From contig NZ_LGJH01000165.1 of assembly GCF_001298105.1 (NCBI RefSeq), forward strand, positions 186,001 to 250,000: DNA of 64,000 nt, given 5' to 3'. The position numbers and the translations under genes are program-made. The notes under the pieces are model-generated. The model saw only the letters and a list, made by a program, of their open reading frames with translations. It was not told the DNA's origin and ran no database searches. Source of the stretch: Novosphingobium sp. ST904 (GTDB lineage Bacteria; Pseudomonadota; Alphaproteobacteria; Sphingomonadales; Sphingomonadaceae). The first letter of the stretch is position 1, and every line of letters starts with the position of its first letter. Positions 18,072-29,797 of the stretch are shown one piece after another.

Positions 18072-18090
18072 ATTGCGATTGGTTCGCAAT
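18072..18090. promoter_or_regulatory. Fur-like iron-responsive operator
   Basis: A perfect 19-base palindrome, ATTGCGA-N5-TCGCAAT, lies in the 54-base gap directly upstream of the ECF sigma gene. The TGCGA/TCGCA arms match the form I recall for Fur boxes of Caulobacter and sphingomonads. Its place before a heme-uptake operon supports iron-dependent repression by Fur. Confidence 0.7.
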
Positions 18091-18115
18091 AAGTGATCTG
18101 CTATCCGTCCCGGCC

Positions 18116-18655
18116 ATGGATCGAGCAGACAGGGAAAACGGAGCATCGTCCGATGGCGAACTGCTGCGCGTCTTCCTGGCGCAGCGTTCCGAACTCGTCC
18201 GTTATACCGCGAACATCGTTGGGGACCGGGCCGGGGCGGAAGACATCGTCCAGGAGGCCTGGCTGCGTTTCAATGCTGCGGCGAAGAAGCAGCTTATCGG
18301 CGAACCTCGGGGATTCCTGTTCCGCATCGCCCGTAACCTTGCGCTCGATGGCCGGCGCCGCCGCAGCTTCGAGCAGAAGCTGTTCAGCGGCGACGACAGC
18401 GGCGTGGCCGAACTGATTGCAAGCGACGAGCCTTCCGCACAGACCCGGCTGGAGGCGATGGATGAGCTTTCGATCATTCGCACGGCCATGGACGCCCTGC
18501 CGGAGCGGACGCGGCTGGCGTTCACCATGCACCGGTTCGAGGGCGCGCGCCTGATCGACATCGCGGAGCGGCTCGGCATTTCCAGGAGCCTGGCGCAGGA
18601 ACTCGTGGTGGATGGTCTGGAGCGCTGCCGCAAGGCCTTGCGGCGGCGGCCATGA
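18116..18655 (+). CDS. fecI: ECF sigma factor, FecI-like
   Basis: The 179-residue protein has region 2 with GAEDIVQEAWLRF (about residues 40-52) and region 4 with LPERTRLAFTMHRFEG and DIAERLGISRSLAQEL. Both the length and the pairing with a FecR gene 63 bases downstream are those of iron-starvation ECF sigma factors. In this family the sigma is held or activated by FecR when the cognate outer-membrane receptor binds its ligand. It lies behind a Fur-like palindrome and is the first gene of the heme-uptake operon, so it probably drives the receptor, hemophore and Slam genes. Confidence 0.9.
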   Translation: MDRADRENGASSDGELLRVFLAQRSELVRYTANIVGDRAGAEDIVQEAWLRFNAAAKKQLIGEPRGFLFRIARNLALDGRRRRSFEQKLFSGDDSGVAELIASDEPSAQTRLEAMDELSIIRTAMDALPERTRLAFTMHRFEGARLIDIAERLGISRSLAQELVVDGLERCRKALRRRP

Positions 18656-18718
18656 CGATACCTGCATTTTTATCCGGATTCCCGGCGGCGTCGTTCGTCT
18701 CAATCATGTGGAGTCTCG

Positions 18719-19714
18719 TTGGCGACAGGAAATGCGGCAAGACCCGTGATGAATGACGAAGTGGATATGGGCGCGGTCGAGCGAATGGCATCGACCTGGC
18801 TGGTTCGTCTCGATGACGATCCGGAGGACGCCGGATTGCGCGCGGAATTCGAGCAGTGGCTCGATGCCAGCCCTGAGCATCGCCGGGTATGGGCGGAAAC
18901 GCGGGATCTCGATCTCCTGCTTGAGGCTGCAAGGCCGGTGGATGCCGTAGCGCTGCCTGCCGGGAATGTCGTTCCGTTGAAGTTTCGCCGCAAGGCGCGG
19001 GGCAAATGGCGTGTGTTCGTGCCGCTCGCGGCAGCAGCCTGCCTTGGGCTGGTTCTGGCGGCCGACATTCCGGTCTGGATGCAGGCGCAGGATATCGCGC
19101 GCACCGGAGAGGTTCACAAGGTGGCCTTGCAGGACGGCAGCACCGCCTGGCTCGCGCCCGGCGCTGCGATGGCATTCTCGATGGACGCAGAGGGCCGGCG
19201 CCTGAAACTTCTGCGCGGAAAGGGCTATTTCGACGTGGCCCACGATCCTGCCCATCCCTTCCGCGTGGAGGCCGGAGACGGGGAGGTGAAGGTTCTCGGC
19301 ACCGCGTTCGAGGCAGGGTTCAACGAGCAGGGTATGGCGGTTTCCGTTCGGCGGGGGCTTGTGGAGGTTTCCTATCCCAAGGGCCGGGTGCGAGACCGGC
19401 TGCGCCCCGGACGATCGATCGCGGTGCCCTGGGCCGGAAGCCCTTCGCGCGGCCAGGTCCGGCCAGACCGGATCGCGGCGTGGATGAACGGCCGCCTTCT
19501 GGTCAACGATCGCCCGGTAAGGGACGTGCTCGAAGCGCTGCGTCCCTGGTACGGGGGCTATATCGTCGCGCGAGGGCCGGGGCTCGACACGAGGCGGGTA
19601 ACGGGCATTTACGATCTGCGCCATCCGGATGCAGCGCTGGAGGCGCTTGCGAGAGCCCACACCATCGCCGTGCGCGACATTACGCCATGGCTGAGGATCG
19701 TCACCGTAGAGTGA
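18719..19714 (+). CDS. fecR: FecR-family anti-sigma / signal-transducing protein
   Basis: The 331-residue protein has a cytoplasmic N-terminal DUF4880-like segment (WLDASPEHRRVWAE), one membrane helix (about residues 100-117, FVPLAAAACLGLVLAA) and a periplasmic FecR domain containing LQDGSTAWLAPGA and LRGKGYFDVAHDPAHPF. A C-terminal DUF4974-like region follows (LLVNDRPVRDVLEALRPWYGG). A TTG start at 18719 is preferred because GGAG lies five bases ahead; an in-frame ATG at 18749 is the alternative. It transmits the signal from the TonB receptor at 19882, whose N-terminal STN domain fits this role, to the adjacent ECF sigma factor. Confidence 0.9.
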   Translation: MATGNAARPVMNDEVDMGAVERMASTWLVRLDDDPEDAGLRAEFEQWLDASPEHRRVWAETRDLDLLLEAARPVDAVALPAGNVVPLKFRRKARGKWRVFVPLAAAACLGLVLAADIPVWMQAQDIARTGEVHKVALQDGSTAWLAPGAAMAFSMDAEGRRLKLLRGKGYFDVAHDPAHPFRVEAGDGEVKVLGTAFEAGFNEQGMAVSVRRGLVEVSYPKGRVRDRLRPGRSIAVPWAGSPSRGQVRPDRIAAWMNGRLLVNDRPVRDVLEALRPWYGGYIVARGPGLDTRRVTGIYDLRHPDAALEALARAHTIAVRDITPWLRIVTVE

Positions 19715-19839
19715 GCCGGGGGATGGCCGGCAGGCGCTGAGAAGGCTGCTTTTCCATGCAGTTTCCCTTAGGCTTCAATTAATTCACCGCTCACTGCATT
19801 TTTTTCCGGAATTTCCTGAGCCTCGCCCGTCGTTAGGAT

Positions 19840-19856
19840 ATGCGACTGACTTGCAT
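19840..19856. promoter_or_regulatory. imperfect Fur-like palindrome upstream of the TonB receptor
   Basis: ATGCGA-N5-TTGCAT differs from perfect symmetry by one base and resembles the box at 18072. It lies 26 bases before the receptor start. Upstream, GGAATTT at 19808 and CGTCG at 19829 could form an ECF-type promoter. Both readings are tentative. Confidence 0.35.
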
Positions 19857-19881
19857 TAGCATTTAGTCGCCCGTTTGACGA

Positions 19882-22800
19882 ATGGGGGATTTTGACGGTG
19901 ATTGCGGGGGTGAAGTTTTGCGGGATGGGGCGGCGCGTGCCTGGGCGGGAGCGCTTCTGGCGTCGGTATCCGCAGCAGGGCTGGCTTTTCCCGCTGTGGC
20001 CGCAGCGCAGGCCAGCACAAGCGGCGAAGCACGGGCGTTCAGCATTCCGGCGCAGTCCCTGGCCGATGCGCTGACGGATTTCGGAGAGCAGTCCGGCCTG
20101 CAGGTCAGCGTCAATGCGGATGATGTGCGCGGCCGTTCGACCGGCGGCGTGAGCGGCCGCATGGCTCCGGCGCTGGCGCTGGGGCGCCTGCTGGCGGGCA
20201 CCGGCCTCGGTTATCGCATCGAAGGCAGCGTGGTCAGCCTCTCGAAACTGCCTGCCGCATCCGACGGAAGCGTCCAGCTCGGCCCGCTGCGGGTCGAAGG
20301 CAGCGTGAGCAACGCGGCGGAGACCGGCGCTGAGCGCGATACCCGGCAGCGCGATGCGGTCTACGATCAGGATATCTCTTCGACTTATGCGGGCAAGGAG
20401 GAGGTCGAACGCTACAAGGGCGTGAATACCGCCGACGTGCTGAAGGGCATGGTCAATGTCTTCAGCGGCGATGCCCGTAACGGCGGCGCGCTCGACCCCA
20501 GCATTCGCGGCATCCAGGGGCCGGGCCGCGTGCCCGTGCTGATCGACGGAACCGAGCAGGCGCTGACGGTCTGGCGCGGATACAACGGCGCCAGCAATCG
20601 CAGTTACATCGATCCCAGCCTGATCTCGGGCGTGCAGGTGCTCAAGGGGCCGGTTTCCACCCGCGGGGTCAACGGATCGACCGGCGGTGCCGTGGTCATC
20701 AACACGCTCGACGCCAGCGACATCCTCAAGCCCGGGCAGAGCTTCGGCGTGGAGATGCGGCTGGAAGGCGGCAACAACTCCACCGATCCGCGCCTGCCGA
20801 CGCTGCTGACCGGGCTGGACTATCGCGATATTCCCGGCTTCGTCGGCACCGGCGTGGGCGCTTCGCCGACCTATCCCTATGCGGACCCTTCGTTGCGGGT
20901 GAACCTGAAAGGCAGCGACGACAACGAATTCGTCTCATTCGGCGATCGTGCCGCGCGGCTGGCCGTGGCGGGGCGCGTGGGAGACTTCGAACTGTTCGGT
21001 GCTTACGCCTACCGCGAGCGCGGCAACTACTTTTCGGGCAAGACGGGGGCCGGTTATTACCAGCAGGAAGACCTGCCGCTGAACGCCGATACTTATGTGC
21101 GGAAGCTGGGCCTCAATTACGAACCCGGCAACGAGGTTCCCAATACCTCGAGCGAGCTGGAATCGTGGCTGCTGAAGGCAACCTGGAAGATCGCCGACGA
21201 TCAGGCTCTCCAGATCGGTTTTCGCGACAGTCGCTCGAAGTTCGGCGAGATCATGCCATCGCGGATCATGACCGCCGGAGGCGGATATTTCGGCAATATC
21301 CAGTGGCCGCTCAGCAAGGTCCATGCACAGGCCTGGAACGGGGAGTACAAGTGGGACCCGGATAGCCGCCTGATCGATTTCAAGGCCAATCTCTGGGCGA
21401 CCCATACCGTTGGCGATACCTACAGCGCGGGTGGCTTTCCGAATGCCGCTTCGGAGGCGGACCCGATCATCACCAATAAGGCGCTCTCCAACTCGCGGAA
21501 CAACCGCTATGGCCTGACCGCCAGCAACCAGTTCGAACTGACCTCGACGCTGGACCTGCTGATGGAGGGAAGCTGGCAGCACGAGAAGCTGCGTTCGGAC
21601 GACGAATATTCGGAGGCGATGGCCAACGGCTGGCGTCAGTTGCCGCGCGCGGGACGGCGCGAGGAATATCGCCTCAGCCTCAAGGGCGAATGGCGCCCCG
21701 CGCAATTCCTGAAGTTCAATGCCGGACTGACCTATTCGGGATATTGGGCGAAGGACGATTTCCTGCCCAAGTATCTCGAACTGCAGGGCGGTTCGATCTC
21801 GCAGTATGTCACGCCCTCGTGGAAGACCACTTATGAAACGGAGGAATCCGGCGCCGCCGCGTGGGAAGCCTATCGCCGGGCCTATTGGACCGGGCTGAAC
21901 ATGCCGCAATCGGTGATCGACATCATCCTGCCGATCGAGATCGCCAGCTACGCGGCCAATCCCTATACTTTCGTCGTCAGTCACGACGGGCCGGACTGGA
22001 CCCCGGACGCCTCGGGCAACTTCCACCGCGCGGACAATTTCTGCCTGAACGGTTCGACCGACAGCATCGCCGGCTTCGTGGCGGGCCGCTGTGTGGTCAG
22101 CGCCCAGAACGAACTGGTCGCGATAACGCAGGCCAAGCGCAAGTCGGGCAGCGGCTGGGCGCCGACGCTTTCGGCCACCGCTTACATCAGCAGCGCCAGC
22201 CGGGCCTATCTGCGCTATGCCGAGGCCTATCGCTTCCCCAGCATGTTCGAGAGCACGATCGGCTTTTCAGCCTCGATCAACCCCTCGCGCGATCTGAAGC
22301 CCGAGCGCATCCGTTCGTGGGAAGCGGCCTGGATACAGGACCTGCGCCCTCTGTTCGGCCTGAACGACGGCCAGTACGCCGACCTCAAGCTGACCTGGTA
22401 TCACAACACCACCCGCGACGTGATCGAGCGCGACATCCACCTGATGTTCAGCAATCTCGACAAGCAGGTGATCGCCGGCTTCGAGCTTCAGGCGCGGTAT
22501 GACAACGGGCGCTTCTTCACCGATCTGAGCGCCGGCCATATGACGACCAATAAGGTTTGCGACGAGAGCCAGGCGGCGACCATGGACCCGAGCCGGGGCC
22601 GGGTGCCCGACTGCGTGAAGTACGGCTTCATCGCCGGTTTCCTGCTCACGCAGGCCACGCCCGAGGATACGGTGAACTGGACGGTGGGCGGCCGTTTCCT
22701 CGACCGTCGGCTCGAACTGGGCGGCAGGCTCACCTGGTATGCGGGCTACGACAACCCGCAACTGGCCGAATTCACCAACGAGGCGGACTGCATCGGCGGC

Positions 22801-22998
22801 TGCGCGCTCAATATCCCGTACACCTGGGGAGAGATCGTGACCCTGGATGCCTTCGCGAAGTTCCGCATCAACGACCGGTTCAGCGCCGAGCTGACCGGCC
22901 TCAACCTCAACAACCGCTATTACCTCGACCCGCTGTCGCGTTCGTTGCTGCCCGCACCGGGACGCACCGTGAAGCTCAGCGTGACCGGCCGGTTCTGA
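19882..22998 (+). CDS. TonB-dependent outer-membrane receptor with signalling (STN) domain, probable hemophore/heme receptor
   Basis: This protein of up to 1038 residues has a signal peptide (ALLASVSAAGLAFPAVAAAQA) and then an STN domain (about residues 50-118, FSIPAQSLADALTDFGEQSG), the hallmark of FecA-type receptors that signal through FecR. A plug domain follows (ADVLKGMVNVFSGDARNGG, GVQVLKGPVSTRGVNGSTG), then a 22-strand type barrel ending in VKLSVTGRF with the terminal Phe. The position between fecR and genes for a hemophilin-like protein, Slam and heme oxygenase makes heme or heme-hemophore the likely ligand. The ATG at 19882 gives a long n-region; TTG at 19918, after a G-rich ribosome site, is a plausible alternative start. 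Confidence 0.9.
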   Translation: MGDFDGDCGGEVLRDGAARAWAGALLASVSAAGLAFPAVAAAQASTSGEARAFSIPAQSLADALTDFGEQSGLQVSVNADDVRGRSTGGVSGRMAPALALGRLLAGTGLGYRIEGSVVSLSKLPAASDGSVQLGPLRVEGSVSNAAETGAERDTRQRDAVYDQDISSTYAGKEEVERYKGVNTADVLKGMVNVFSGDARNGGALDPSIRGIQGPGRVPVLIDGTEQALTVWRGYNGASNRSYIDPSLISGVQVLKGPVSTRGVNGSTGGAVVINTLDASDILKPGQSFGVEMRLEGGNNSTDPRLPTLLTGLDYRDIPGFVGTGVGASPTYPYADPSLRVNLKGSDDNEFVSFGDRAARLAVAGRVGDFELFGAYAYRERGNYFSGKTGAGYYQQEDLPLNADTYVRKLGLNYEPGNEVPNTSSELESWLLKATWKIADDQALQIGFRDSRSKFGEIMPSRIMTAGGGYFGNIQWPLSKVHAQAWNGEYKWDPDSRLIDFKANLWATHTVGDTYSAGGFPNAASEADPIITNKALSNSRNNRYGLTASNQFELTSTLDLLMEGSWQHEKLRSDDEYSEAMANGWRQLPRAGRREEYRLSLKGEWRPAQFLKFNAGLTYSGYWAKDDFLPKYLELQGGSISQYVTPSWKTTYETEESGAAAWEAYRRAYWTGLNMPQSVIDIILPIEIASYAANPYTFVVSHDGPDWTPDASGNFHRADNFCLNGSTDSIAGFVAGRCVVSAQNELVAITQAKRKSGSGWAPTLSATAYISSASRAYLRYAEAYRFPSMFESTIGFSASINPSRDLKPERIRSWEAAWIQDLRPLFGLNDGQYADLKLTWYHNTTRDVIERDIHLMFSNLDKQVIAGFELQARYDNGRFFTDLSAGHMTTNKVCDESQAATMDPSRGRVPDCVKYGFIAGFLLTQATPEDTVNWTVGGRFLDRRLELGGRLTWYAGYDNPQLAEFTNEADCIGGCALNIPYTWGEIVTLDAFAKFRINDRFSAELTGLNLNNRYYLDPLSRSLLPAPGRTVKLSVTGRF

Positions 22999-23016
22999 GG
23001 AGAATTTCAGGACCGC

Positions 23017-23055
23017 CGCCGGTGCTCTTGATCCTGACAGAGCAGGGCACCGGCG
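23017..23055 (+). terminator. intercistronic hairpin between receptor and hemophore genes
   Basis: A perfect 9-bp stem (CGCCGGTGC / GCACCGGCG) with an inner short stem lies in the 114-base gap. No T-tract follows. It could be an attenuator or an RNA-stability element giving different receptor and hemophore levels. Confidence 0.45.
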
Positions 23056-23112
23056 ACGATCCTGGATCAACGCGCCCGAACGATCGGGCGCACCAACTGC
23101 AGGAGAAGTAGA

Positions 23113-23884
23113 ATGAAGTCTGCCTATCTCAAAGCAATTGCTGCCGCCTTCACCCTTTCGACCGCGCTGGCCGGTACGGCCCAGGCGCAAGTGGTCGGTG
23201 CATCGAGCGACACGGCGAAAGTGAAGATCGCCGCCAGCACCGTCAGCGGCGGACCTCACGTGGCCGGACGCGTGGGCATCAACGTGCCGAGCCTGACCAG
23301 CGTGCAGTACGTCGATTTCCAGGGGCTCCAGGCCTATGCCGCAGCTGATGCCAACGGCGTGACCTCGGTTGCGCAAGTCACCGGCACCGTCACCGACCAC
23401 AGCAAGTACGGCCGCTTCGACTTTGCCAAGGTCGGCACGCAGGATGTCTACTTTGGCGAATGGTCGCAGACCGGCAGCGCCACTGCCGGCGATCACACCG
23501 TCTACTACGGCGGCACCGGCCAGACGAGCGCAGTGCCCAACAGCGGCGCCGCCAGCTACTCGGTCAAGGGCATCAGCGACTATGCCAACAAGGGCATCCT
23601 GACCGGTACCTTCAACGCGACGTTCACGGGCGGCGGCACCGGCATTCTGACCGCAGCTCAGCAATGCTTCGGGAAGCTACGGCGTCAACATCGGTACGGC
23701 GGGCATCAGCGGAGGCGCCTTCTCCGGCACTACCGCCACGGCTACCAGCGGCACCACCACGGTCGCCACGAACGGCGCCGTCAGCGGTAGCTTCTTCGGC
23801 ACCAATGCCGATGCGCTGGCCGGGATCGTCAACTTTGCGTCGGCCCGCCAGTACAACACCGCGTTCGGCGGCACCAAGAACTGA
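23113..23884 (+). CDS. hemophilin-like secreted hemophore, Slam substrate (frameshifted near 23660)
   Basis: The protein begins with a Sec signal peptide (AAAFTLSTALAGTAQAQ) ending in an AQA cleavage site and has no lipobox cysteine, so it should be soluble rather than a lipoprotein. An N-terminal handle region is followed by a small beta-barrel with the pattern VYYGGTG..VPNSGAASYSVKG and LTGTFNATF, resembling the TbpB/hemophilin C-terminal barrel recognised by Slam. At about 23660 the frame shifts: removing one base restores NASGSYGVNIGTAGISGGAF and later ADALAGIVNFASARQYNTAF, ending GGTKN at 23884 (about 256 residues). GGAGAAG precedes the ATG. Gene order (receptor, this gene, Slam, heme oxygenase) supports heme binding; direct heme ligands cannot be fixed. 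Confidence 0.8.
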
Positions 23885-23960
23885 TCCGAGCGTGAAATCG
23901 GGATCGGGCGCCGCCGTGCGTCCGGTCCCACCACGTGCGAACGGGATAGACACGATCCTC

Positions 23961-25451
23961 ATGGCCGCCTTTCGCAAGTACCTGCTGCTGCTCTGTGCGG
24001 GCATGCCGCTCGGAACCCCCTCGGCAGTGGCACAGAGCGGAAGCGGGCAGGACACGCGCCTGCGCCTGGACCAGCAGATCGACCGGCAGCAAGCCCAGCG
24101 CGAAGCCGAAGCGCGGGAGGATGCCGAAGCACTGGACGAAGTGCCCTCTTCAATGGTGATCGACGGCGAGACCTATGCGGTCGGCAACAATGCCAGCGAC
24201 CTCGGGCAGGCGCTCTACATTTCCGTCTCTCGCAAGCAATGGCGCGACGTGCGCCGTTTTCTGGCGGCCTACCGCAAGCTGGAAGATCGCGATCCGATGC
24301 TGGAGCTTTACGCTCTCGGCGCGCTTGCCCGCAGCGAGGGCAAACTGGCGCAGGCGGAACGCGATTACCGTGCGCTGCTGGACCTCAAGCCGGATTTCCT
24401 GCCCGGGCAGCTCGAACTGGCGCGGACGCTGTTCGAGAACCGCAAGGACCGGGAGGCCGCCCGCATATTCCGCGCCGCGCGGCTTCAGGTGGCCGGAGGC
24501 GGGCCGCAAGGCGAAGGAGTGCTGCGCTCGATCGACGCTTTCCTCTCCGCATTGAAGACGCGGCAGGGCTGGCAGGGCAGCCTGGCGCTTGGGCCGGGCT
24601 ACAGCACCAATCTCAACCAGTCCTCGGCAAGCTATACCTGCCTCCTCGCCGCCGATGACGGCACCTGCCTGATCGATCGCAAGGTGCCGGATGCGATCGC
24701 CTCCACCGGGATCAACATCGAGGGAACGCTCAGCCGCCGCATCGCGCTCGGCGGGCATGGCGGGCTGCGGGCAAGGGCGATGCTGTTCGGGGACATCTAT
24801 CCCGAGCATCACGCCTATTCGCAAACCACCGCGATCATGCGGCTCGGCTACGATTACCAGACGGCCCGAGACGGCGTGGCCATCTCGCCCTCCTTCGATC
24901 TGGGGACCTTCGGTTCCTCGATCCTCTACACGGCCTGGGGCGTGAATGCGGAGTGGACGCATACCCTTTCTCCGCGCGCGCTGTTCAAGCTGGAGGGCAA
25001 CTACCGCCGGTTCGACTATGCCCTGGCCGGCTACGACACGCAGGACGGCGGGCTGGCCGATCTGTTCCTCACCGGCTGGTATACCCTGCCGCACGGCTGG
25101 ACCCTGCTGGGCGGGCCCGATGCGCTCGACAAATCGGCGGGCGATCCCGTCGATGCCTATCGCCAGCTGGGTGCGCGCCTCGGTGTGGCGAAGTCCTTCG
25201 GCAATGCCGCCAGCCTGCTCCTGCTCGGCTCCGCGAGGGAGCGCCGCTACCGGGCCTACAGCGAACTTTTCGAAGCGAAGCGCCGGGACCGGGAGCAGGT
25301 CTATACCGCAATCCTGCGCGTGCCGGCGCTCAGGCTGGCGGGGCTCGTGCCCGAGGCGCTGGTCCAGCACAACCGGGTGAAGAGCAATATCGACTGGCTC
25401 TATTCCTACCGGCGCACGACCGTCAGCCTCCGGCTTAGCCGCTCCTTCTGA
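23961..25451 (+). CDS. Slam (surface lipoprotein assembly modifier, DUF560) outer-membrane translocator
   Basis: The 496-residue protein has a signal peptide (LLLLCAGMPLGTPSAVAQ) and then a periplasmic TPR-like helical domain (about residues 60-195), for example AQAERDYRALLDLKPDFLPG and LARTLFENRKDREAARIFRA. A C-terminal beta-barrel of about 14 strands begins near GSLALGPGYSTNLNQ and ends VSLRLSRSF with the terminal Phe. This is the Slam architecture, in which the barrel exports TbpB- or hemophilin-type substrates. The ATG at 23961 is used; the open frame further upstream is a shadow of the hemophore gene. It lies between the hemophore and heme oxygenase genes, so the hemophore is its expected substrate. 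Confidence 0.88.
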   Translation: MAAFRKYLLLLCAGMPLGTPSAVAQSGSGQDTRLRLDQQIDRQQAQREAEAREDAEALDEVPSSMVIDGETYAVGNNASDLGQALYISVSRKQWRDVRRFLAAYRKLEDRDPMLELYALGALARSEGKLAQAERDYRALLDLKPDFLPGQLELARTLFENRKDREAARIFRAARLQVAGGGPQGEGVLRSIDAFLSALKTRQGWQGSLALGPGYSTNLNQSSASYTCLLAADDGTCLIDRKVPDAIASTGINIEGTLSRRIALGGHGGLRARAMLFGDIYPEHHAYSQTTAIMRLGYDYQTARDGVAISPSFDLGTFGSSILYTAWGVNAEWTHTLSPRALFKLEGNYRRFDYALAGYDTQDGGLADLFLTGWYTLPHGWTLLGGPDALDKSAGDPVDAYRQLGARLGVAKSFGNAASLLLLGSARERRYRAYSELFEAKRRDREQVYTAILRVPALRLAGLVPEALVQHNRVKSNIDWLYSYRRTTVSLRLSRSF

Positions 25452-25478
25452 AACCGATCCCCGAAAAAGGAGAGTTCG

Positions 25479-26078
25479 ATGACCATGACCACCGATACCG
25501 TTCCCCTTCCGCTTTCGAAGCGTCTCAAGGTGGAAACCGAAAGCGTTCACGAGGCACTGGACAAGCGGATCATGTCTGCCGATCCATTCGCGGACCGTGA
25601 GCGCTACGGGCGCTTCGTTGCCGTTCAGTACCTGTTCCACCGCGATATCGATGCGCTTTACGAGCAGCCCGCGCTGGCCGCCTTGCTCCCCGATCTTGCT
25701 GACCGCCGCCGACTGCCGCTGATCGCGTTCGATCTTGCCGATCTCGGCCTTGCGGTTCCCGAGGCGGGCGCGGCGCCGGCCTTCGGCGCAGGCGCGGACA
25801 TTCCCACGGCGCTGGGCTGGCTCTATGTTGCGGAAGGCTCAAACCTGGGGGCGGCGTTCCTGTTCAAGGCGGCGGCGGCACTGGGTCTGGACGAGAATAG
25901 CGGCGCGCGCCACCTCGCCGGTCATCCCGAGGGCCGCGCACGGCACTGGCGCAGCTTTACTGCCGCACTGGACGCGGCGGCGCTTTCCCCGGCAGAGCAG
26001 GCCCGCGCGCGCGCCGGAGCGGAAGCGGCATTCCTGCGGGTGAGGGGGCTCGTCGAGGATCATCTCGCCCGTGCCTGA
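25479..26078 (+). CDS. hemO: biliverdin-producing heme oxygenase
   Basis: The 199-residue, all-helical protein matches bacterial heme oxygenases of the HemO/PigA type in length. The proximal heme ligand is probably His24 in VHEALDKR, and the distal helix shows LGWLYVAEGSNLGAAFL with the flexible glycines over the heme. It opens the porphyrin ring with oxygen to release iron, biliverdin and CO in the cytoplasm, the final step of heme use. AGGAGAG precedes the ATG. It ends 8 bases inside the start of the tonB gene. No inner-membrane heme permease is encoded in the operon, so heme entry into the cytoplasm must rely on genes elsewhere. Confidence 0.92.
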   Translation: MTMTTDTVPLPLSKRLKVETESVHEALDKRIMSADPFADRERYGRFVAVQYLFHRDIDALYEQPALAALLPDLADRRRLPLIAFDLADLGLAVPEAGAAPAFGAGADIPTALGWLYVAEGSNLGAAFLFKAAAALGLDENSGARHLAGHPEGRARHWRSFTAALDAAALSPAEQARARAGAEAAFLRVRGLVEDHLARA

Positions 26079-26768
26079 TTTAAGGGCAGGCCAGACAGGT
26101 TACGCACCGGCCCGCAATCCGGCTGCATTCGGGCTGAGCGTGGCGCTGCATCTGGCTGTTGCCGGGGCCATGCTGGTGGTCTGGCGGGAGGCGCCGAGGA
26201 TACTGTCCGCCTCCACGCCTGCGCTCACGGTCAATCTCGTACCGCTTGCGGCGCCCGACCGGTCCGCGATGTCGCGCCCGGGCCGGAGCAGGTCGAGAGG
26301 CAGGAGGAACGGGTGGAGGTCCAGGCCGAGGAAGCCCCCGTCTTCACGCTGCAGAAGGTTTCCATCCAGCCTCGGGAGGAGCGGCAGGAAGTGGCCGAGC
26401 CGGTCGATCCCGGCCCGCCGATACCGGAAACGACCGCGCCGAAGAGCATCCAGGCGCCGCCTGCGCCGCGGCTTTCGAACATGGCCGAGCCGGACTGGGA
26501 AGCCCGGCTTCTTGCGCATCTTGAACGGTTCCGCCGCTATCCGGCGCGCGCCCGCTCGGCGCGGCAGCAGGGCACCGTTCTGGTGCGCTTCAAGGTTACG
26601 CGCGGCGGGCAGGTTCTTGCTGCCGTCATCCAGCGCAGTTCGGGCTTCTCGGGACTGGATCAGGCGGCGCTCGAAACCTTTGGGCGCGCGCAGCCGCTGC
26701 CCCGTCTTCCCGAAGACCGGCCGGACCCGCTGGAACTGACGGTTCCTGTGGAATTCTACTTGCGCTGA
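26071..26768 (+). CDS. tonB: TonB energy transducer (frameshifted near 26265)
   Basis: The first frame encodes a short cytoplasmic tail and one membrane anchor (FGLSVALHLAVAGAMLVVW, about residues 18-36) followed by a proline-containing stretch. One base is missing at about 26263-26267. The second frame then continues with an acidic, proline-rich linker (PVDPGPPIPETTAPKS) and the TonB C-terminal domain with RRYP, GTVLVRFKVTRGGQV and LELTVPVEFYLR. Repaired length is about 232 residues, normal for TonB. The GTG start overlaps the hemO end by 8 bases. As the last gene of the operon it probably energises the receptor at 19882. Confidence 0.85.
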
Positions 26769-26831: not shown

Positions 26832-29341
26832 TCAGAACGTGATCTTGGTCTGGATACCGGCCGTGCGCAGTTCCGGCAGGCCCAGCATGAGCGCGGAGTA
26901 GCGCGCGGTGTAGCTGAACGTCGGGTTGAACACGAAGTTGTCCGATACCGAGATCGGCGTGTGGTTGTTGAACAGGTTGTTGACGAATGCCTCCACCGTG
27001 ATCTGGCCGTGAGTGATGCCGGCACGCACATTGAAGAGGTGCAGGTCCGGCGTCTTCGCGAGGTTGGCCTCGTTCGACCATTGACCGGACTTGAAGTTCC
27101 AGTCGCCGCGCACGAACCAGCGGCCTTCGTCCCAACCGGCGATCTCGGTGCCCAGAGTCACGCCGACGTTGGCCGAATACTTGGAGGTGTTCTTCATCTC
27201 CTTGCCGGAGAAATCGTAGATGCCCGTCAGCGCGCTGATGGTGGTGCTGGTGAACTTCTGGATGTCGGTTTCGTTGACCGCGCCGGCCGCATCGATGGTG
27301 ATGAAGTCGGTCGGCCGCCAGGAAACCTCGCCCTCGACACCGTAGAGATCGACGTCGCCCGAGTTGGCCGAGGTGTTGACGAAGCTGAACCCGGTAGCCT
27401 GCGTGGAATCGGGCGCGACGATGGTCACCGCGTTGATCTGGTCGCGCCACTGGGCGTAGTAGGCCGCCAGGCTGTAGCGCAGGTTGCCGCCCAGCGCCTT
27501 GCCCTTGAGACCCAGTTCGTAGTTGGTGATCTTCTCCGGCTTGATCGAGAGCTGGCCGCCCGCATCGAGCGCGGCCTGCTGCACGGTTGCCGCGTTGGAC
27601 AGGATCGAGGTGTTGAACTGGGCGGGATTCACGCCCTTCGACCACGAAGCGTAGACCATCATGTCGGGCGAGATCTGCCAGTTGATGATCGCACGCGGCG
27701 TGAAGTTCTTGTAGGTGGCGCTGGCCAGCAGCGAACCGCCTTCGTAGAACCCGGCCGGGATGAAGGCGCTGGAGGCCACGGTGAGCCCCGATGCGGTGGC
27801 GAAGGCCTGCAACTTGTCGATCTGGTAACGACCTTCGACACTGGCCGAGATGGTGTCGGTCAGGTCATAGGTCAGGCCGAAGAAGAAGCCGGTCGTCTTG
27901 TTGCGGCTGAGACCGCCGGGGAACATCGACGCGGTGAGCAGGGAGCCGGTGCTGCCGCCGTTGCCCTGGATCTGGTCGGCGCTGAGGTAGCTGACACCGG
28001 CGACGCCGCGGAACGGCCCCTTGGTGTAGGACAGGCGCCCTTCGAGCGAGAAGTCCTCGATCTTGCGCTCGATCAGGTAGGGATAGTCGAAGTAGCCCTT
28101 TCCGTAGTTCGCGGGCGGATCGTAGGAGTCGTTGCTGAAGGCGCGGGTATCGTAGCCGTCGAGGTCGATCAGCGTGGTCCAGACCTCGCGGTTGTAACCG
28201 GCGAGGGCGGAAGCGGTAAGGTTGTCTGTCAGGTCCACGTCGATGGTGCCGTGGACGTGGCGGGTCTTGCGCAGCAGGCCGTAGCCCGAGACGGTATCGT
28301 CAGGCGAGACGACGCGGCCGCGCGTGCTGGCCAGGAACTGGCGCACCTGGTCGGTATTCTCGACGTTGGCGGTGACGGGGTTCGCGATCGTCGGGATCGT
28401 GCCGCAGAAATAGGGATTGCTGACGGCGGTACCGATCGGCTGGCCCGTGGTGGGATCGAGCACGCCGCGCGTATCGCCGGTCAGGGTGCAGTTCGACTGG
28501 CCCTGAAGCACGACGCTGCCGTTGGGGGCGGTGACGGTATAGGCGCTGAGGCGGGTCTGTGCCGCCGGGCCGTCCTTGTCCTCGCCCATCATGCCGAAGA
28601 GCTTGATGGTGACGGAGGAGGAGGGGGTGATCGCCAGCATCGCGGTGCCGACGGTGGAGGACTGGTCGCCCAGCGTGCTGCCGTCGTAGTTCTTCCACGA
28701 GCCGCTCTTCGACCACTTCTCGCCGGTGACGCGGAAGGAAATCAGGTCCTCGATGATCGGCCCTTCTACAGAGCCCTGCAGGCGCCAGTTGTCGCGCGTG
28801 CCGACCATGCCGAGGATCTGGCCGCCCCAGTCGTTGCCGGGCACCTTGTTCACGACGTTGATGGCGCCTGCAAACGTGTTGCGGCCGAAGTAGGCGCTTT
28901 GCGGGCCCTTGAGGATTTCGATGCGCTCGGGATTGCTGATCGCGCCGACCTGCGAGGGTGACGAGACAGGCACGCCGTCAATGAAGGTCGAAACCGTGGT
29001 CGCCAGCGTCGTCGACGGCGTGAAGCCGCGCAGCACGACCTGCTGGAACGAGCGATCCGCATGGCCCGAGGAACTGTTGTTGATGTTGATGCCGGGCGTC
29101 GAGTTGGCGACATCCACCATCGAGACGATGCCCTTGGCTTCGAGCGTCTCGGACGTGATCGCCGTCACCGTAACCGGCACCTTGAGGATGTCCTCGCCGG
29201 TCTTGCGCGCGTGACGACGATGTCGCCACTGGTGTTTTCGGGAGCTTCGGCCATGGCCGGTGCCGACCATGTCATACCGGCGACGAGCGCCAGGGTTGAT
29301 AGCGTGGAAGCGAGACGGATGGTGTGAGAATTGCCAGTCAT
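26832..29341 (-). CDS. TonB-dependent outer-membrane receptor (frameshifted near 29208)
   Basis: The start at 29341, with GAGGGAAAAC ahead of ATG, gives a signal peptide (LASTLSTLALVAGMTWSAPAMA). The TonB box region (SGDIVVT) is followed by a frame break: adding one base at about 29205-29211 yields VVTARKTGEDILKVPV, the family consensus. The plug continues with PERIEILKGPQSAYFGRNT, and the barrel ends GIQTKITF. Repaired length is about 836 residues. There is no STN domain, so it does not signal through FecR. It is the CirA-like type that sphingomonads often use for aromatic or hydroxamate ligands. It lies downstream of the amidohydrolase/LeuCD-like operon on the same strand, so it may import that operon's substrate. 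Confidence 0.87.
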
Positions 29342-29797
29342 GTTTTCCCTCAATGCTGATCGAAAGGACACGCAAGGGCGCATCGCTTCAAATTGAGTCC
29401 CTGCTGCTTGAACACTTTGTTCTTGCAAGGCGTCAGGATCGCGCTTCAGCGCTTGTCTCCGGATGTTCGCCCGATTTGTTCTTCAGATTGTATTCTGGTT
29501 GTTTTTACGTGTTCTTGGGGTGTTGTTTGGCGGTCCCGATATTTGTCCGGGTTGTCGCCATGATTGCTTCTTCCCTCTTTTTGTCTTGCGTCCCGATCGA
29601 GCGGGCCGCTGCTTTTTTGTCAGTGATAGATTTACTTGAGTCTCGTCAGAATGACGGCGAATCTGGTGCGTATTCGCCTGTCGGATGAGCGTGCGCGGCG
29701 CTCGCGGCCGGCCCATGCGCTGCGAACCCGCGCGGGCTGGGCCCGGCGGGTTCGGCATGTGATCGTGCTGGGAATGCGCCTTTTCAGGCGCGCCGAT
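29342..29797. other. 456-base non-coding gap upstream of the TonB receptor
   Basis: No credible gene is seen. The part from 29480 to 29650 is unusually T/G-rich on the plus strand, so a minus-strand leader of the receptor would be A/C-rich and largely unstructured. A small hairpin (GCGCCT-TTTC-AGGCGC, 29776-29791) lies just past the end of the amidohydrolase gene and may end its transcript. The remainder probably holds the receptor promoter and leader. Confidence 0.5.

Follow-up and report, generated by a model that had tools for sequence, protein, structure and literature searches.

The question raised by this locus is whether Novosphingobium sp. ST904, a sphingomonad, carries a whole heme-uptake system built around a secreted hemophilin (HphA) and the outer-membrane protein Slam. 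The window, i.e., the whole stretch of DNA analysed here, covers 64,000 nucleotides of contig NZ_LGJH01000165.1 (positions 186,001 to 250,000; assembly GCF_001298105.1), and its positions 18072-26768 hold seven genes on the plus strand, coding for an extracytoplasmic function (ECF) sigma factor, FecR, a TonB-dependent receptor, HphA, Slam, a heme oxygenase, and TonB. Families were called from Pfam profile matches, each over the Pfam cut-off, with NCBIfam as a second library, and they bear out in order, coordinates, and family the seven plus-strand genes that a preliminary description, made from the letters alone, had listed. The observation of a seven-gene hemophilin-Slam locus is confirmed, and its reading as a hemophilin-Slam heme-acquisition system, also put forward in that description, is supported; we consider it very probable that the locus is a Slam-dependent hemophilin heme-uptake operon of the hemO/hphRA type of Acinetobacter baumannii. 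The evidence gathered here consists of family identities, the fold of a relative's protein, conserved histidines, synteny, recurring upstream sites, and the open frames of a second genome, that of Novosphingobium sp. RL4.

The protein coded at 23113-23884, previously read as hemophilin-like, does match HphA: HphA_N lies on 23113-23676 and HphA_C, in a different frame, on 23660-23884, and the intact HphA of RL4 matches both families too. The closest solved chain by sequence is a hemophilin, 8gmm (3e-24), followed by 6om5, 8glo, 9us7, 7re4, and 8gm3. An AlphaFold model of the HphA of Sphingobium vermicomposti (predicted local distance difference test, pLDDT, 86; predicted template modelling score, pTM, 0.84) draws hemophilin chains alone in the top eight places of its PDB comparison, ahead of TbpB and fHbp, the best being HphA of Stenotrophomonas maltophilia (E 3e-18), which as PDB 8gmm is the closest solved hemophilin by both sequence and fold. 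Pfam and the relative's model agree on the hemophilin architecture, an N-terminal heme clamp followed by a C-terminal 8-strand barrel. In an alignment of 19 HphA rows (16 from sphingomonads, one of which is the first piece of the window, one from Xanthomonas, and two from Psychrobacter, with the near-copies L035 and L040 left out), H49 is invariant (19/19) and H96 is kept at 90% or more; the window has both at these numbers. H96 aligns with H106 of A. baumannii and H49 with a histidine of 8gmm. In A. baumannii, heme is bound through H43 and H106, the release of HphA requires its Slam, and an hphR mutant is not fed by holo-HphA (PMC8560813). The signal peptide ends in AQA and, by eye, no cysteine stands in the first 30 residues, i.e., there is no lipobox; HphA is, on this sequence evidence, predicted to be a soluble secreted hemophilin with H49 and H96 as its heme-ligand histidines.

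As for the barrel protein at 23961-25451, a comparison with DUF560 had been called for, and it matches both Slam-specific Pfam models, SlipAM and TPR_Slam, which between them take in the TPR part and all of the barrel; the seven families that Pfam lists include none of BcsC or PgaA type. Its structure model (pLDDT 83.7) shows TPR helices and 14 long strands. In a Slam tree of 43 sequences, with some long branches flagged by the program and three Slams of the order that are not hemophilin-linked (L008, L011, and L013) dropped by the length filter, the 25 hemophilin-linked sphingomonad rows, the window included, form one clade (Shimodaira-Hasegawa-like approximate likelihood ratio test, SH-aLRT, 100), whose neighbours are the hemophilin-linked Slams of gammaproteobacteria and others; the order's seven remaining Slams in the tree, including one that belongs to the ST904 genome, fall outside the hemophilin-linked clade.

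The synteny survey that had been proposed for Sphingomonadales found all seven genes together in one run in 24 of 25 further sphingomonad loci, a set that includes RL4 and two S. sanguinis, the 25th (L088) being cut by a contig end; in L042, the FecI match has an early stop in the extracted sequence. The parallel drawn earlier with Acinetobacter also stands, as the A. baumannii hemO cluster consists of an ECF sigma factor, an anti-sigma factor, hphR, hphA, hsmA, a TonB-related gene, a heme oxygenase, and a hypothetical gene (PMC10483418), and the window operon has the same seven parts. Unlike the A. baumannii cluster, the window has the oxygenase before TonB, as have 14 of 24 other loci, while the Acinetobacter order Slam-TonB-oxygenase is found in the remaining 10 of the 24 full sphingomonad loci. 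The window operon also has no DUF454 gene: the word “complete” used in the preliminary description holds for the seven genes it named, but an eighth, usual in relatives, is absent here. DUF454 adjoins the heme oxygenase in 22 of the 24 other full sphingomonad loci, RL4 and L041 giving no match, and was confirmed by Pfam in L028, L034, and L044. The ST904 genome does hold DUF454 on other contigs only (C95 and C137), whereas its two further heme oxygenase matches lie on C101 and C102, which rules out a DUF454 placed beside another oxygenase elsewhere in this genome.

The receptor is nearest, among NCBIfam models, to TonB-hemin of the heme/hemoglobin receptor family (2e-68, 231.5 bits, below the cut-off of 316.85), and its STN domain, together with the linked FecR and ECF sigma genes, makes up the parts of a FecI/FecR-type cell-surface signalling system according to Pfam. 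Many heme receptors carry a histidine between their FRAP and NPNL boxes. In hphR, the stretch at window positions 22230-22310, between FRAP-like and NPNL-like boxes, was compared by a pattern that matched in 9 of 36 receptors, and in these nine it is histidine-free.

Upstream sites were compared in 32 loci, namely the window, its conspecific, close kin (several of them very near), and six gammaproteobacterial or other loci, against shuffles drawn as first-order Markov samples. The Fur-like palindrome that had been noticed ahead of the operon is there and is perfect (TTGCGA-N5-TCGCAA, at 18073-18089); it is the sole match in the window at one mismatch or fewer (0.27 expected by chance), its full 17-mer occurs nowhere else in the 6.27-Mb genome at that tolerance, and the palindrome recurs upstream of fecI, at one mismatch or fewer, in 17 of the 32 loci (shuffled mean 0.07, maximum 2). 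Between fecR and hphR, beyond that single palindrome, we observed a promoter-like site and a second Fur-like site. The former is found in strict form (GGAAT-N15-CGTC) in 7 of the 32 loci (shuffled mean 0.23, maximum 2) and in relaxed form (GGAA-N16-17-CGT) in 15 (mean 0.96, maximum 4), the latter in 18 (mean 0.49, maximum 4). Both Fur-like sites are candidate Fur boxes, and the promoter-like site a candidate ECF promoter, by their resemblance to consensus sequences, those of alphaproteobacterial Fur boxes for the former.

Several points weigh against reading the locus as a working hemophilin operon and have to be kept in mind beside the evidence above. The site patterns were picked after the sequences had been seen, and the sites are far from universal: the palindrome upstream of fecI was not found in 15 of the 32 loci, the second Fur-like site in 14, and the promoter-like site, even relaxed, in 17. 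The loop histidine H49 aligns two residues off H43 of A. baumannii, and the case for its equivalence is therefore made by the S. maltophilia alignment and by its invariance. In NCBIfam, the two halves of HphA are nearest to NF041636, a Slam-dependent protein model, and each scores below its cut-off (61.1 and 54.1 vs. 80). HphA is moreover an accessory in A. baumannii, where HphR can still take heme by itself (PMC8560813). With the Slam model, Foldseek returned weak TPR-barrels and porins (BcsC, PelB, and OmpG, with BcsC and PelB leading), and the best 50 matches have a TMq of at most 0.39 and hold no solved Slam; as none is among the matches listed, the fold search cannot decide between a Slam and a TPR-porin. 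Finally, the window assembly as written yields neither a whole HphA nor a whole TonB.

This last point leads to the question of whether the operon is decaying in ST904, with hphA and tonB as true pseudogenes and a receptor left to use the hemophores of other cells. Three of the seven window frames are indeed broken (hphA near 23660, tonB near 26255, and the start of hphR, which is off-frame with one base short near 19930 relative to the same-species genome), so that the break pointed out in hphA by the preliminary description is real but is not confined to that gene, and the operon also has no DUF454. RL4, a genome rated as the same species and 98.98% identical to the window over 20 kb, has these frames open, however: its hphA (257 aa) and tonB (232 aa) translate without an inner stop, and its hphR is a single open frame of 1035 aa whose start reads differently in the window. 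Over the same 20 kb, the seven gap bases, at six places, all lie on one side: the window lacks each of them and has no surplus base. Identity of hphA to other sphingomonads is 53-68% before the break and 45-74% past it, with no relaxed stretch seen. Unrelated, ordinary genes of the window's contig (C78) are frame-broken as well, e.g., near 165821, 280530, and 292584, and for a hydantoinase, a PQQ-dehydrogenase, and an AcrB-type pump, the pieces in different frames are consecutive parts of one Pfam model. A codon-usage scan of 350 kb, made without a false-positive control and flagging neither hphA nor tonB, gave 113 close same-strand frame changes, in 32 of which the upstream frame continues for more than 45 bases; from eight pairs extracted out of these 32, five were sent to Pfam, three of which proved to be consecutive parts of one model, one to be the plug and the barrel of a TonB-dependent receptor, and one to have no family. 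The breaks across the contig point to missing-base errors throughout the assembly. Because of the open frames in RL4, the gap bases all missing from the window, and the breaks in unrelated genes of the contig, we conclude that the broken frames of hphA, tonB, and hphR are apparent assembly errors and not decay, which we regard as very unlikely.

If the genes are sound, one may still ask what they carry. The ligand might not be heme but another tetrapyrrole or a metal complex, with the operon oxygenase serving endogenous turnover: no heme source is known for sphingomonads living free, two further heme oxygenase matches lie elsewhere in the genome, and a cargo of the type XI secretion system (T11SS), CrpC, is named cobalt receptor protein (PMC12282271). 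Yet the clamp domain is hit by HphA_N, a heme-binding model, at 7e-38, both histidines are present, the receptor is nearest to a heme/hemoglobin receptor family, albeit below cut-off, and a heme oxygenase match stands inside the operon in all 24 untruncated sphingomonad loci, all of which makes a non-heme ligand highly improbable. That the barrel is a generic TPR-porin, HphA exiting by another route, draws on BcsC and PelB being the closest solved folds among the matches listed; against it, the matches to the Slam-specific models extend through the TPR part and all of the barrel, and the window protein sits among the hemophilin-linked rows of the Slam tree, so that we give this possibility next to no credit.

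For a hemophilin-Slam operon, we infer from studied relatives how HphA is secreted, binds heme, and delivers it, how the operon is regulated, and in which order the steps follow. At low iron, Fur would no longer hold back fecI-fecR and hphR. A cleavable signal peptide would take HphA through the inner membrane, Slam would release it across the outer membrane, and HphA would hold heme between H49 and H96. The heme would then be handed from HphA to HphR, which would import it with TonB, and the heme oxygenase would free the iron, while the loaded receptor would raise, via its STN domain, FecR, and FecI, transcription from hphR onward.

The system is a well-supported member of a kind known from Acinetobacter, and it recurs patchily in many relatives of ST904. 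In the sample of the order, 4 of 396 genomes have HphA_N (2 of 84 genera), as do 11 of 195 genomes of the genus, 1 of 385 in the class sample (ST904 itself), and 9 of 398 in the phylum sample, each count including ST904. Slam (PF04575) is present in 49 of 196 genomes of the order, and this common exporter is therefore only rarely accompanied by a hemophilin. When species genomes were scanned with a piece of HphA, by a search keyed on short conserved peptides and liable to miss distant relatives, 20 loci emerged, i.e., 17 sphingomonads (Sphingobium, Novosphingobium, Sphingomonas, Pelagerythrobacter, and Hephaestia), one Xanthomonas, and two Psychrobacter. In the phylum sample outside the class, FecI-FecR-HphR-HphA-Slam matches were found in five of eight loci, three of the five from one genus. 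Two loci outside the class, of one genus, have two tandem hemophilin genes between receptor and Slam (L094:9535-11114 and L095:9483-11062), both copies being over the HphA_N cut-off.

In a tree of concatenated HphR, Slam, and heme oxygenase (27 rows), the nine Novosphingobium rows need five changes, and a single Novosphingobium clade fails the approximately unbiased (AU) test (p 6e-5); the operon tree, as far as these sequences indicate, does not follow genus. The operon is on plasmid-named records in N. resinovorum SA1 (1.76 Mb) and in RL4, isolated from rhizosphere soil of Rheum palmatum (NZ_CP141945.1, “plasmid unnamed”, 1,820,724 bp); such a place, on a 1.82-Mb “plasmid” record, and a carrier that is an environmental (soil) alphaproteobacterium differ from what is known of A. 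baumannii. It is conceivable, and we propose it only tentatively, that environmental sphingomonads have here a hemophore system which is mobile and induces itself, passing from one genus to another, in part on large second replicons, and by which soil- and plant-associated bacteria might take heme from environmental hemoproteins or from neighbours, the loaded hemophore switching the operon on via STN-FecR-FecI. Hemophilins have been studied, in the literature cited here, as tools of animal-associated bacteria; their whole set in scattered sphingomonads, several from soil or plants, raises the questions of which heme source is used and whether the hemophore is shared or private, and would offer an environmental model for whether a hemophilin signals through its receptor.

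A similar idea of hemophore, receptor, and sigma/anti-sigma signalling is known from HasA-HasR-HasS-HasI of Serratia, HasA having an unrelated fold and being exported by an ATP-binding cassette (ABC) type I system. The abstract of Shin 2024 reportedly places HphA in alpha-, beta-, and gammaproteobacteria. Our search of the open literature, made without Shin 2024 and Grossman 2024 (J Bacteriol), the most relevant papers, found no description of the operon in sphingomonads. T11SS subcluster 1C is largely Sphingomonadaceae (PMC8406197), and a hemophilin-like 1 cargo is reported in Rhodobacteraceae/Roseobacteraceae (PMC12282271). With these two precedents and the ECF sigma/anti-sigma pair of A. 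baumannii (PMC10483418) in print, the claimed extension of the known range is weaker than first stated. The “Sphingomonas surface protein” cargo of the Sphingomonadaceae T11SS shares the Slam superfamily and host family with the present system (PMC8406197, PMC12282271); unlike HphA, it has several barrels and Pro-Thr repeats, and 18 of 30 counted were lipoproteins (PMC12282271). The operon of Xanthomonas sp. AmX2 (L044) has all seven genes and DUF454 matched in synteny; unlike the window, it is gammaproteobacterial, its HphA is 41% identical, and the trees place it in the sister group to the sphingomonad clade. The full Xanthomonas operon, with DUF454, spans L044:4850-15647, TonB lying about 1.5 kb further on.

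Table 1. Genes and candidate control sites of the operon, in window coordinates.
Feature	Position	Strand	Matches and remarks
Fur-like palindrome TTGCGA-N5-TCGCAA upstream of fecI	18073..18089		Perfect
fecI, ECF sigma factor of FecI type	18116..18655	+	Sigma70_r2 2e-12, Sigma70_r4_2 2e-9; syntenic in relatives
fecR, FecR-type anti-sigma factor/sensor	18719..19714	+	FecR 3e-15, DUF4880 1e-12
Candidate ECF-sigma promoter GGAAT-N15-CGTC before hphR	19808..19831	+	Pattern chosen after seeing the window
Second Fur-like site, between promoter-like site and hphR	19841..19856		Pattern picked once the loci had been seen
hphR, TonB-dependent heme/hemophore receptor with STN signalling domain	19882..22998	+	STN 7e-9, Plug 2e-14; start off-frame in assembly
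hphA, secreted hemophilin (predicted)	23113..23884	+	HphA_N 7e-38, HphA_C 1e-15; frame-broken near 23660
Slam/T11SS outer-membrane protein, TPR domain and 14-strand barrel	23961..25451	+	SlipAM 8e-31, TPR_Slam 3e-24
Heme oxygenase	25479..26078	+	PF01126 3e-24
tonB	26071..26768	+	TonB_C 2e-17; frame-broken near 26255

Outside the operon, its left neighbours in the window (a cyclase and an FAH-type hydrolase) had no match in any relative locus compared, and in those relatives the operon therefore adjoins other genes. At its right end, an open frame on the minus strand (26832-29375), which by eye resembles a TonB-dependent receptor, is convergent to the operon. Elsewhere in the ST904 genome, contig C87 (L026:5094-9786) carries a second Slam, outside the hemophilin-linked clade of the Slam tree, with two neighbouring TbpB_B_D proteins that have lipoprotein-like starts, one of them with a Pro-Thr repeat like that of the published “Sphingomonas surface protein” cargo.

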